Origin: a virus
IMG/VR virus record: IMGVR_UViG_3300042861_001151
Span: 1-41,076 of that record
Strand: one strand, 5' to 3'
DNA: 41,076 nt
Shown here piece by piece: positions 34,240 to 39,969 of the stretch (position 1 is the stretch's first letter; the number at the start of each line of letters is the position of its first letter). The notes beneath the pieces are model-generated. The model had not been told where the DNA came from. It saw only the letters and a list, made by a program, of their open reading frames with translations, and searched no databases. A program made the translations under genes and the position numbers.

Positions 34240-34626
34240 ATGACAAGAGAAGAATTATTGGCGTTTCATTCTGAATTGTGCAGCGAAGCTAAAGCATTGA
34301 TGAGTCTAAAAAATAAAGACTACGCAGGTAATGAAGGCACAGAACCTTTTGCAAATTTCACCCGCGTAGAATCTATGGGTATTTGTAAGACAGAACAAGG
34401 ATTTATGGTTCGCCTTACAGATAAAATGAGTAGATTGAGTTCTTTTGTTCGGGCAGGAAAAATGCATGTAAAAGATGAGAGTTTTAAAGATACCTGCATC
34501 GATGTAATTAACTACATGGTTTTATTGGCAGCCTATGTTAGTTCCAAAGATCAAGAACAGAAAAAAGAATTGCTGGTAGAAAATAATAAGAATAGTATTG
34601 ACTCATCCACAAACAAAACGATATAA
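34240..34626 (+). CDS. DUF1599-type nucleotide modification-associated protein
   Basis: This 128-aa helical protein has KNKDYAGNEG, then FMVRLTDKMSRLSSF and DTCIDVINYMVLLAAY, the order of conserved acids and helices in DUF1599 (nucleotide modification-associated domain, PF07659). The family resembles all-alpha NTP pyrophosphohydrolase folds. The GGAG ribosome site at 34230 supports the start. Its 3' end forms the promoter of the polymerase gene: the stop TAA lies inside the -10 box. Confidence 0.8.
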   Translation: MTREELLAFHSELCSEAKALMSLKNKDYAGNEGTEPFANFTRVESMGICKTEQGFMVRLTDKMSRLSSFVRAGKMHVKDESFKDTCIDVINYMVLLAAYVSSKDQEQKKELLVENNKNSIDSSTNKTI

Positions 34627-34636
34627 TACTACCATG
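34598..34636 (+). promoter_or_regulatory. Sigma70-type promoter of 43A, predicted leaderless
   Basis: TTGACT (34598-34603) and TATAAT (34622-34627) are separated by 18 bp. Six nt lie between the -10 and the ATG at 34634. It sits within the last codons of the DUF1599 gene. No Shine-Dalgarno sequence is possible between the -10 box and the ATG. Confidence 0.78.
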
Positions 34637-36112
34637 TCATTTTATACCAATGTATTTTCATACGGAAATAAGATTCTCTATCGGGAAAGAGATGAGTCCG
34701 GTGTATCCACCAAGAATGAAACTTATTTTCGACCTTCTCTATTTGTAAATACAGATAAAAAGACAGACTATAAAAGTATTTTTGGCAAATCTTTAGACAG
34801 GGTTGAATTTGAGAATAAAGATGAATACATGAAATTTATTGAAAGATATTCCGATGTATCTGGATTTGAAATTCATGGCGAAATTCAAGCAGAGTATCAA
34901 TTTATTCGGAACAATTATCCCGATTGTCAGCCAAACTATGATTTGCTAGATATTGCCTATATTGACATAGAAACGACAAGTGAATTTGGATTTCCTAATT
35001 TTCAGTCACCTGAAGAAAAAGTTATTGCAATTTGCATTAGCAGGAAAGACGAACCCTCTGTTGTTTTTTGTCTAGGCGAATACAAGAAACAAAAAGATGA
35101 AATAGTTCACTGCTTTGACAATGAAGATAATCTTCTTTATATGTTTTTAGAATACTTTTCCGGTCGATATCCTGATATCATTAGCGGATGGAGTATTCGT
35201 TTTTTCGATATTCCATATCTCTACAACAGAATAATTCGACTTCTTGGGGAAAAGATTGCAAAGAAACTTTCACCTTGGAATGTCATAAAGGAAAAGATTG
35301 TAGATCGCGGAGTCATAGGAAAACATGTAGTCTATGATATTGTTGGTATTTCGATTCTTGATTATTACGAATTGTACAAAACATTCACATATGTAAATAG
35401 AGAGTCATATAAATTGGATTATATTGCATCTGTCGAATTAGGGGAAAAGAAACTGGACTATACTGAATATGAAAGCATTCAAGAATTTTATCAAAAGAAT
35501 TTCCAAAAGTTTATCGAATATAACATCAAAGATGTCAAACTGGTTGAACAGCTTGACGATAAACTCCAATTAATGAGATTGGCAGTTACTCTTGCATATT
35601 CTGCCGGAGTTAACTTCAATGATATTTTTTCTCAGGTGAAAACATGGGATGTTATCATTTACAATTATTTGGCAAAGAAAAACATAATCATTCCGGCCAA
35701 AAAGCGTTCTAGGAAAGACGAACAATATATTGGTGCTTATGTAAAGGAACCTATCGTCGGTATGCACAAATGGGTTGTATCTTTCGACTTAAATAGTCTA
35801 TATCCCCATTTGATCATGCAATACAATATTTCCCCCGAAACATTGACTGCCGATGGAATGAGAGGTCTTGTTAGTCCCAATGGCGTTCTCAATAACGGTC
35901 CTGTATCCATGAAATCTATAGACGATCTTAGCAGCAAAAATCTATCTATTGCCGCAAATGGAACGACTTATACCAAAGAAAAGCGCGGATTCCTACCAAA
36001 TTTGATGGATGATATGTACAAAGATCGTAAGATGTACAAAACCAAAATGATCCAGGCAGAAAAGCAACTCGAAAAGGTTGAGGCAGAAATAAAACGAAGA
36101 GGACTTGGTTGA
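34634..36112 (+). CDS. 43A: DNA polymerase gp43, N-terminal half (exonuclease, motif A)
   Basis: The 492-aa protein covers the N-terminal and 3'-5' exonuclease domains of T4-type family B polymerase: Exo I is DIETT with D111 and E113 (T4 D112, E114). The palm motif A, DLNSLYPHLIMQYN, is near residue 385. It ends in the fingers helix (about 460-492, YKDRKMYKTKMIQAEKQLEK...). Motifs B and C are absent here and appear in the gene at 38854-39969. ATG 34634 is chosen over the in-frame TTG at 34598, which is part of the promoter, and gives the normal MSFYTNVFSYGN start. The stop overlaps the next -35 box. Confidence 0.93.
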   Translation: MSFYTNVFSYGNKILYRERDESGVSTKNETYFRPSLFVNTDKKTDYKSIFGKSLDRVEFENKDEYMKFIERYSDVSGFEIHGEIQAEYQFIRNNYPDCQPNYDLLDIAYIDIETTSEFGFPNFQSPEEKVIAICISRKDEPSVVFCLGEYKKQKDEIVHCFDNEDNLLYMFLEYFSGRYPDIISGWSIRFFDIPYLYNRIIRLLGEKIAKKLSPWNVIKEKIVDRGVIGKHVVYDIVGISILDYYELYKTFTYVNRESYKLDYIASVELGEKKLDYTEYESIQEFYQKNFQKFIEYNIKDVKLVEQLDDKLQLMRLAVTLAYSAGVNFNDIFSQVKTWDVIIYNYLAKKNIIIPAKKRSRKDEQYIGAYVKEPIVGMHKWVVSFDLNSLYPHLIMQYNISPETLTADGMRGLVSPNGVLNNGPVSMKSIDDLSSKNLSIAANGTTYTKEKRGFLPNLMDDMYKDRKMYKTKMIQAEKQLEKVEAEIKRRGLG

Positions 36113-36860: not shown

Positions 36861-36865
36861 CTTAT

Positions 36866-36939
36866 GGCGCGATAGACCAATCGGCAGAGTCAATAGACTT
36901 AAAATCTGTGTAGTGTGGGTTCGAGTCCCACTCGCGCTA
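36866..36939 (+). tRNA. tRNA with anticodon TAA (Leu) but short variable loop
   Basis: Acceptor GGCGCGA/TCGCGCT (with a G1-T72 pair), discriminator A, D stem GAC/GTC, anticodon stem ATAGA/TCTGT and loop CTTAAAA giving TAA (reads UUA, Leu). The variable region is only 5 nt (GTAGT) before the T stem GTGGG/CCCAC. Bacterial leucine tRNAs have a long variable arm, so this is a class I body with a leucine anticodon. The fold is otherwise sound. Confidence 0.85.
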
Positions 36940-36945
36940 TTCAAT

Positions 36946-37090
36946 GTATGGTGTCTGGTAAAGCAGACTAGGACAATCAACCGGCCGGTGCTTGTCTGAA
37001 AAGATGAAATATAAGGTCGCATTAACGGGCAACGAGGTTCGTAGAACTTTGCCTTATATTAGTCGAATGGGTGCAAGTCCCTCACCATAC
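36946..37090 (+). ncRNA. tRNA-like structured RNA, 145 nt, unknown family
   Basis: It lies between two tRNAs. The 8-bp closing stem GTATGGTG (36946-36953) pairs with CACCATAC (37083-37090). A D-like hairpin GTCTG/CAGAC (36953-36968) has loop GTAAAG. The last hairpin GGG/CCC (37069-37081) has the loop TGCAAGT, with U and A in T-loop positions 54 and 58. In between are two further hairpins: GGACAA/TTGTCT (36971-36997) enclosing ACC-GGCC-GGT, and AATATAA/TTATATT (37008-37060) enclosing GGCAA/TTGCC. No anticodon arm is evident. I cannot name the family; no open frame fits. Confidence 0.65.
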
Positions 37091-37099
37091 TTAACTTAT

Positions 37100-37171
37100 G
37101 CGGATGTAACTCAATGGTAGAGTGCTAGCCTTCCAAGCTTGCTGTTGAGGGTTCGAGTCCCTTCATCCGCT
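37100..37171 (+). tRNA. tRNA-Gly(TCC)
   Basis: Acceptor GCGGATG/CATCCGC, discriminator T, D stem ACTC/GAGT, anticodon loop CTTCCAA giving TCC (reads GGA). The anticodon stem CTAGC/GCTTG contains one T-T mismatch. T arm GAGGG/CCCTT with loop TTCGAGT. Confidence 0.9.
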
Positions 37172-38826: not shown

Positions 38827-38856
38827 TATTTTAGTTTGTGATACTATACATCTATG
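38819..38856 (+). promoter_or_regulatory. Sigma70-type promoter of 43B, predicted leaderless
   Basis: TTGACT (38819-38824) and TACTAT (38842-38847) are separated by 17 bp. Six nt lie between the -10 and the ATG at 38854. An in-frame TGA at 38839-38841 just before the -10 box excludes longer starts. The -10 matches TATAAT at four of six positions. Confidence 0.7.
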
Positions 38857-39969
38857 GACTTGAATAAACTAACAGACCAAGAACTGTTGGATTTACAACA
38901 TAAACTTGAATATGATATTTCACAATATCATAACTTTCAGTTGGTGAAGAAGATTCAATTGAATTCTGCATATGGCGCAATTGGAAATGAGTATTTCCGA
39001 TATTACAGCACCGAAGTTGCAGAGGCTATTACATTGTCGGGTCAATTGTCGATTCAGTATATTATGAATGAACTGAATTCGTTTTTGAATAAAACCCTAG
39101 AAACAACAGATATAGATTATGTCATAGCATCCGACACAGATTCTGTGTATTTGAATATGGGCGCATTTGTTGACAAATTCATACCAAAGAACAAAAATAC
39201 AGAGGATACTGTGGCTCTTTTGGACAAGGCTGCAAATACGATTATTCTTCCATTTATCAAGAAGAAGTTCGATCAACTTGCTCTTAAGATGAATGCATAT
39301 GAGAATAAAATGGTTATGGGTAGAGAAGTAATTGCAGATAAGGGAATTTGGACTGCAAAGAAGCGGTATATGTTGAATGTATGGGATAGCGAAGGAGTGC
39401 GATATTCTCAACCAAAATTAAAAATCAAGGGAATTGAAACCACTCGCAGTTCTACGCCAGAAGTTGTCCGTGACAACTTAAAATTGGCAATTGATATTAT
39501 TCTGAATAAAACAGAAGATGATCTAATTACATTCATTGAAACGGTGAAAAAAGACTTCTATAGTTATCCTGCCGAGAAGATTGCGTTTCCTAGAAGCGTA
39601 AACGGTATGGATAAGTACAAGGACAGTTATTACATCTACAAGAAGTCTACTCCTATTGCGGTCAAGGGTGCGTTAATTTATAATCACCATGTCAACAAGA
39701 ATGGTCTTGATAAGAAGTATAAATTAATTGGAGAGGGAGATAAAATTAAATATCTTCACTTGAAGAAACCAAATCCACTTGGCGGAATGAAAGGCGAAGA
39801 TCAAATCATTGCATTTCCTTCTAAGTTGCCAAAGGAATTTGAATTGGAGGGATACATTGATTATGGAACGCAATTTGAAAAGTCGTTTCTAGATCCCCTA
39901 TCCAGTATTTTGAATGTTATCGGTTGGAATTACGAAAAGAAGAACACATTGGAAAGTTTATTTTCATAA
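38854..39969 (+). CDS. 43B: DNA polymerase gp43, C-terminal half (motifs B and C)
   Basis: The 371-aa protein begins with a helical segment (1-30) and has motif B KKIQLNSAYGAIGN (32-45), motif C ASDTDSVYL (92-100, catalytic D94 and D96), KKRYMLNVWD and LKIKGIETTRSSTP, all as in T4 gp43. It ends NTLESLF, similar to the gp43 clamp-binding tail. Together with 43A (492 aa) it totals 863 aa, near T4's 898, so the split removes little. The split lies in the fingers between motif A and motif B. It should assemble with 43A non-covalently. Confidence 0.93.
   Translation: MDLNKLTDQELLDLQHKLEYDISQYHNFQLVKKIQLNSAYGAIGNEYFRYYSTEVAEAITLSGQLSIQYIMNELNSFLNKTLETTDIDYVIASDTDSVYLNMGAFVDKFIPKNKNTEDTVALLDKAANTIILPFIKKKFDQLALKMNAYENKMVMGREVIADKGIWTAKKRYMLNVWDSEGVRYSQPKLKIKGIETTRSSTPEVVRDNLKLAIDIILNKTEDDLITFIETVKKDFYSYPAEKIAFPRSVNGMDKYKDSYYIYKKSTPIAVKGALIYNHHVNKNGLDKKYKLIGEGDKIKYLHLKKPNPLGGMKGEDQIIAFPSKLPKEFELEGYIDYGTQFEKSFLDPLSSILNVIGWNYEKKNTLESLFS

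Follow-up and report, generated by a model that had tools for sequence, protein, structure and literature searches.

What is the 145-nt element wedged between two tRNA genes of a T4-like phage, and is it a tRNA at all? The element lies in virus record IMGVR_UViG_3300042861_001151 (hereafter the window: the whole stretch of 41,076 nt that was analysed), which comes from an uncultivated T4-like phage with aquatic bacteria as hosts. UvsX encoded in the window is 57-59% identical to UvsX of Pelagibacter phage HTVC008M, Methylophilales phage Melnitz and cyanophages. The tRNA genes, in the order Leu-CAA, Gln, Leu-UAA, Gly, Asn and Pro, are located 3′ of a gene for a SpoU-type methyltransferase. Two genes (34598-36112 and 38854-39969) encode the halves of a split DNA polymerase B; the SpoU gene and the tRNA array separate them. 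The interval from tRNA-Leu(UAA) to tRNA-Gly(UCC) measures 159 nt, 145 nt of which (36946-37090, plus strand) make up the element, bounded by GTATGGT and ACCATAC. Only 5 nt separate it from the upstream and 9 nt from the downstream tRNA, so the tight tRNA neighbours pointed out in an earlier, sequence-only reading are indeed there. That reading had described the element as an unclassified tRNA-like RNA.

Neither Rfam 15 at the gathering score nor ARAGORN matched anything at 36946-37090. When the Rfam search was relaxed to E<=10, only Tymo_tRNA-like (10.7 bits, cut-off 40) and Yar_3 (8.8 bits, cut-off 50) were retrieved over the element. No match to GOLLD, ROOL, manA, wcaG or YrlA was obtained at either level, in line with the earlier failure to equate the element with manA or wcaG, and the tmRNA covariance models RF00023 and RF04321 did not match the RNA either. 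Identity as a group I intron, riboswitch, YrlA, tmRNA or manA/wcaG RNA was accordingly rejected for want of an Rfam match. A hidden reading frame starting at ATG 37004 was also rejected, since the homologues L005, L016 and L023 have no such ATG and a length difference of a single base puts the frame out of register. A call at 37033-37051 that resembles a terminator coincides with the tip of one of the hairpins of the RNA (hairpin B, Table 1).

Homologues were collected via an exact pattern and via the neighbouring SpoU gene, and were found in 12 other contigs. Together they form four clades, represented by the window, L005 (~91% identical), L016 (75%) and L023 (70-74%). The tRNA-Leu(UAA) and tRNA-Gly neighbours are retained in the homologue contigs examined, with gaps of a few nucleotides, and the parent records of the loci carry a single copy each. 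The RNA diverges faster than the adjacent SpoU gene (75 and 70% versus 90 and 84% identity) and also faster than most of the neighbouring tRNAs. Close relatives devoid of it exist: in L021 (2337-2540) the space from tRNA-Leu(UAA) to tRNA-Gly is taken up by a short open reading frame, and the RNA is therefore dispensable somewhere. BLAST detected no copy in GenBank phages or E. coli genomes, and covariance-model searches of HTVC008M, Melnitz, two cyanophages and T4 revealed no family member. Many matches of the pattern scans were protein genes without tRNAs and were discarded; cellular genomes gave no true match. A limited search of open-licence papers returned no account of this RNA.

The window copy alone folds at −43.4 kcal/mol (z = −2.67), and none of 200 shuffled sequences reached an equally low energy. 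For covariation analysis we used nine distinct sequences, 70-100% identical to the window copy and having the same tRNA neighbours. Across the 43 base pairs of the proposed structure, 98.4% of alignment cells pair. Both sides have changed at 15 of the 43 pairs; the shuffle mean is 3.9, none of 500 shuffles attains 15, and slid controls yield 0-2. RNAalifold, run unaided on the same alignment, predicted 39 pairs in nearly identical helices, 14 of them with changes on both sides. Covariation among relatives, the absence of which had been named beforehand as grounds for abandoning the idea, is thus present.

Table 1. Features of the 145-nt RNA and its flanking tRNA genes (window positions)
Feature	Position	Strand	Evidence
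tRNA-Leu(UAA), upstream neighbour, 5 nt away	36865..36940	+	Called by ARAGORN/Rfam
Whole tRNA-like RNA, 145 nt	36946..37090	+	Fold energy, conservation, covariation, RNAalifold
Acceptor-like stem, 5′ strand GUAUGGU, pairs with 37084-37090; G1-C72-like end	36946..36952	+	7/7 pairs in nine sequences, two with both-side changes
D-like hairpin GUCUG-GUAAAG-CAGAC, loop without GG	36953..36968	+	Both-side changes at two pairs
Hairpin A, anticodon-arm position	36971..36997	+	Lower stem 36971-36976/36992-36997
Hairpin A, upper stem and GGCC loop (36983-36986)	36980-36982/36987-36989	+	ACC/GGU -> GCU/AGC, GGCC invariant
Hairpin B, 62 nt, variable-arm position	37003..37064	+	Helices 37003-37005/37062-37064, 37009-37016/37052-37059, 37034-37038/37046-37050
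Hairpin B, internal-loop stretch UCGCAUUAACGGG	37017..37029	+	Largely conserved
Hairpin B, apical loop, 7 nt, UCGUAGA	37039..37045	+	UCGUARA across all homologues
T-like arm GA(AU)GGG-UGCAAGU-CCCUC, T-loop 37072-37078	37065..37083	+	GGG/CCC -> GGA/UCC in L016, L023
Acceptor-like stem, 3′ strand ACCAUAC	37084..37090	+	Pairs with 36946-36952
tRNA-Gly(UCC), downstream neighbour, 9 nt away	37100..37171	+	Called by ARAGORN/Rfam

As in class II tRNAs, a 7-bp acceptor stem is followed by the D-like arm, then by hairpins A and B, and lastly by the T-arm. The closing stem, the D-like hairpin, two central hairpins (the first with GGCC) and the T-loop-like final hairpin, all recognized in the sequence-only reading, are kept in the nine sequences. 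In the upper stem of hairpin A, G-C replaces A-U and U-A replaces C-G. Hairpin B has both-side changes at seven pairs in three helices and at one isolated pair between them; in L023 its 5-bp tip stem is swapped at several pairs. The 5′-most G pairs with the 3′-most C in all homologues, and RNase P is known to favour a G-C-type first pair at tRNA 5′ ends. As for the supposed mimicry of a tRNA elbow, the helices for it are present, whereas the elbow itself is doubtful: the D-like loop reads GUAAAG, AUAAAG or UUAAG among homologues and has no GG, the dinucleotide on which a tRNA elbow depends, and the T-loop is UGCAAGU instead of UUCRANY. Neither a D-loop GG nor a UUCRANY T-loop was found in any homologue.

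Using the T-arm pattern, we identified 96-nt RNAs among the arrayed tRNA genes of further uncultivated phages (L055-L058, L061 and L063). A model of these RNAs led in turn to L028 and to a set of 82-nt RNAs flanked by tRNA-Gly and tRNA-Tyr, near-invariant apart from the surroundings of the anticodon-position loop. A frame made up of the acceptor, the D arm, CUAG, hairpin A and the T-arm is probably common to the 145-nt and 82-nt RNAs. Our model of the 145-nt RNA (R1) scores two 82-nt RNAs at 23.1 and 22.3 bits (E = 3e-4 and 6e-4), skipping hairpin B, and the 96-nt RNAs at 23.5-26.2 bits, all to be read against decoys with the T-arm motif, the same motif that was used to find the relatives, which reach 19.1 bits. 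Since the scores are modest, stem partly from the search motif and compare with decoys at ~19 bits, the 82- and 96-nt RNAs are only probable smaller relatives of the 145-nt RNA. A match of the R2 model to the window (29.7 bits) owed its score to the T-arm and was placed out of register on the D arm; it was not used as evidence. The sequence-only reading had the anticodon arm replaced by an enlarged central domain with two hairpins. The two hairpins stand, and the domain is better divided into hairpin A at the anticodon position and a giant hairpin B at the variable-arm position, because the 82-nt relatives keep A and lack B. The simplest reading of the model alignment is that the window RNA consists of an 82-nt-type core with a 62-nt hairpin added at the variable-arm position.

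Related loci contain further unannotated RNAs. L026 (4792-4965) has a group I intron (RF00028, 57.4 bits) in an apparent tRNA-Leu gene missed by ARAGORN. L028 (4036-4126) and L057 (1515-1602, minus strand) each contain one more tRNA-like RNA, adjoining the 88- and 96-nt RNAs; both have a long arm of the variable type and the loop GACAA at the anticodon position. Another tRNA-like sequence not called by ARAGORN, in L029 (~2530-2600), has the acceptor GCGUAGU/ACUACGC, an anticodon-type loop CUUAUAA and an abnormal T-arm.

Could the element nevertheless be a tRNA, decayed or interrupted by an intron? Its place in a tRNA array, its divergence relative to SpoU and its loss from close relatives would all suit such an origin, and at a lowered threshold the intron mode of ARAGORN yields tRNA-Gln(UUG) with a 73-nt intron. 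Each homologue, however, gives a different anticodon and intron: the calls comprise Gln(UUG), Leu(UAA), Leu(GAG) and Tyr(AUA, no intron), all below the normal threshold. There is no RF00005 match of at least 29 bits at 36946-37090, whereas the six real tRNAs of the window score 52.7-68.3. The third arm bears no 7-nt anticodon loop with U33 and ends in a GGCC tetraloop in all homologues. Moreover, decay would not be expected to leave 15 compensating pairs and invariant loops; this already disfavoured origin is very improbable. By these tests the layout of the element is tRNA-like, but the element itself is not a tRNA, with or without an intron. The earlier description as an unclassified tRNA-like RNA in a tRNA cluster is therefore upheld, as no Rfam family and no intron-bearing tRNA explains the element and covariation is present.

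Alternatively, the RNA might be a decoding tRNA of odd form, with its true anticodon arm in hairpin B (5 bp, loop UCGUARA, GUA = Tyr) and with hairpin A as an insert. UCGUARA is invariant save for one purine and sits atop a covarying 5-bp stem, and anticodon-like loops occur in the 96-nt (UUCUAGA, CUUUAAA) and 82-nt (UUGCAAA, UUGUAAA) relatives, whose loops would then read CUA (UAG), UUA (UAA) or GCA/GUA/AUA. Yet C replaces U33, the arm of hairpin B far exceeds tRNA length, and in the model alignment the central arm of the 82-nt RNAs corresponds to A and not to B. In addition, the triplet varies among relatives, stop-codon use in the window is normal, and both T-loop and D-loop are non-canonical. 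We consider decoding by hairpin B improbable. A suppressor tRNA, suggested by the 96-nt loop UUCUAGA, was rejected because the triplets of relatives differ and the window genes are open under the standard code.

The explanation we favour, with a probability somewhat below one half (roughly 45%), is that of a stable, non-decoding, tRNA-shaped phage RNA, matured together with the tRNA transcript and mimicking tRNA for a tRNA-binding protein. Covariation, the fixed tRNA-flanked position, the G-C end, the frame probably shared with the 82-nt RNAs, the lack of a consistent anticodon and the precedent of T4 RNA C are all consistent with such a mimic. The absence of the RNA from some close relatives, such as L021, counts against it. 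The RNA would be co-transcribed with the flanking tRNAs and excised by host tRNA-maturation enzymes that recognize the acceptor/T-arm stack, although this recognition, like the elbow, is not assured given the D loop without GG and the non-canonical T-loop. With a GGCC tetraloop at the anticodon position it would not decode; instead, it may engage a tRNA-binding protein of host or phage in the course of infection, and candidates for this protein are a defence enzyme that cuts tRNAs and a translation factor, for example one that acts in ribosome rescue. Hairpin B would be the added specific part of the mimic. An arms-race setting is plausible, because host anticodon nucleases have been proposed to shape phage tRNAs (PMC10264068). 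Processing together with the tRNAs, the lack of decoding and the mimicry itself are inferred; the observations are a conserved fold, a fixed place, no known family and probable relatives without hairpin B.

A more specific possibility is that the RNA is a partner of phage tmRNA in ribosome rescue, working with, or protected by, the trans-translation machinery. A tmRNA above the Rfam cut-off is present in 15 of 22 contigs having the RNA or a relative versus 3 of 25 without (Fisher p = 1e-4), a lead and not a result, because the contigs are related and of unequal lengths and for most non-carriers the scan was confined to the permuted model. Two contigs have a permuted tmRNA that starts 3 nt after the 96-nt RNA. 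Against such a partnership, the 145-nt form co-occurs with tmRNA in one contig only (G001), ~58 kb apart and as a separate gene, and a search for phage SmpB found none. Melnitz encodes a two-piece tmRNA (PMC9004378), and despite it the model search of this phage detected no member of the 145-nt family. We therefore hold a role as tmRNA partner to be quite unlikely. Permuted tmRNAs (RF04321, 58.7-85 bits) lie near 96-/82-nt RNAs in L114, L115, L116, L117 and the records of L119, L120 and L122-L127; a one-piece tmRNA (134.9 bits) is encoded in the record of L016.

The GGCC loop had been proposed to allow kissing between RNA copies. In one version of this idea, two molecules kiss through the GGCC loops of their hairpins A, and it is as a dimer that the RNA is active. 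GGCC is invariant and the stem beneath it covaries; equivalent loops in relatives are self-complementary as well (UCUAGA, CUUUAAAG, UUGCAA, UUAUAA and UGUACA), and GOLLD and ROOL, likewise near phage tRNAs, assemble through kissing loops (PMC12286853). Self-complementarity as proof of kissing was weakened by a control with 34 distinct real anticodon loops from the same loci, 3 of which contain a 6-nt Watson-Crick palindrome (12 when G-U pairs are admitted). One of the relatives' loops, UUGCAAA, recurs as the anticodon loop of a tRNA-Cys encoded in the same loci. Because real anticodon loops are so often palindromic here, the loop palindromes are weak evidence for kissing, and since GGCC never varies, the loop itself provides no covariation evidence. 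Kissing is thus possible on weak grounds and an active dimer doubtful; the latter would be compatible with tRNA mimicry, and does not exclude it.

A still broader proposal would unite these threads into a wide phage RNA family of at least three architectures (82, 96 and 145 nt), which uses the tRNA frame for a non-decoding job, pairs with itself via the anticodon-position loop and acts alongside phage tmRNA, with T4 RNA C as an independent instance; as a whole, we regard it as unlikely. In any case, a family with solid covariation, a near-invariant compact 82-nt form and members in several lineages offers experimental access to the role of tRNA-shaped phage RNAs. Candidate roles that could be addressed include protecting or replacing tRNAs, acting as a decoy for tRNA-cutting defence and serving ribosome rescue. 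It also means that some of the RNAs encoded in the tRNA arrays of aquatic phages escape tRNA finders and Rfam.

Compared with known systems, the window RNA has the helix order and the long variable-position arm of class II tRNAs (RF00005), which differ from it in having a canonical anticodon, D-loop GG and T-loop. It shares tRNA-like ends and an enlarged middle with tmRNAs (RF00023, RF04321), often found in the same phage contigs, but unlike them it has no conserved tag reading frame and no Rfam match. manA and wcaG are likewise structured RNAs of T4-like marine phages, regarded as candidate cis-regulatory RNAs in 5′ UTRs (PMC2864571). GOLLD and ROOL, non-coding RNAs with kissing loops near phage tRNA islands (PMC12286853), are several times larger than the window RNA and have no sequence or model match to it. 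To our knowledge, no role has been assigned to RNA C and RNA D of T4 since their discovery. T4 RNA C (rnaC, species 1 RNA, 139 nt) resembles the window RNA in its location in a T4-like tRNA cluster, similar size, acceptor-like ends, T-arm and enlarged middle. It differs in that the D-side arm is enlarged, a CGUCAA hairpin occupies the variable-arm position and the T-arm is canonical (GGUUCGAAUCC). In T4 (L071, 909-1047, minus strand) and the Karamvirus homologues L100, L101 and L102, the CGUCAA loop at the variable-arm position is carried on a changing stem and the T-arm is canonical. The R1 search of the T4 genome returned nothing; by this model, the window RNA and RNA C are not homologous. 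RNA C is expressed late (PMC9697503) and its role is unknown (PMC3014915), and it exemplifies the stable non-tRNA RNAs that arise from phage tRNA clusters (PMC9697503, PMC3014915). The family of the window RNA, absent from Rfam 15 and without homology to RNA C by the model used, thus has in T4 RNA C a precedent in kind: judged by position, both are non-tRNA genes inside a phage tRNA cluster.
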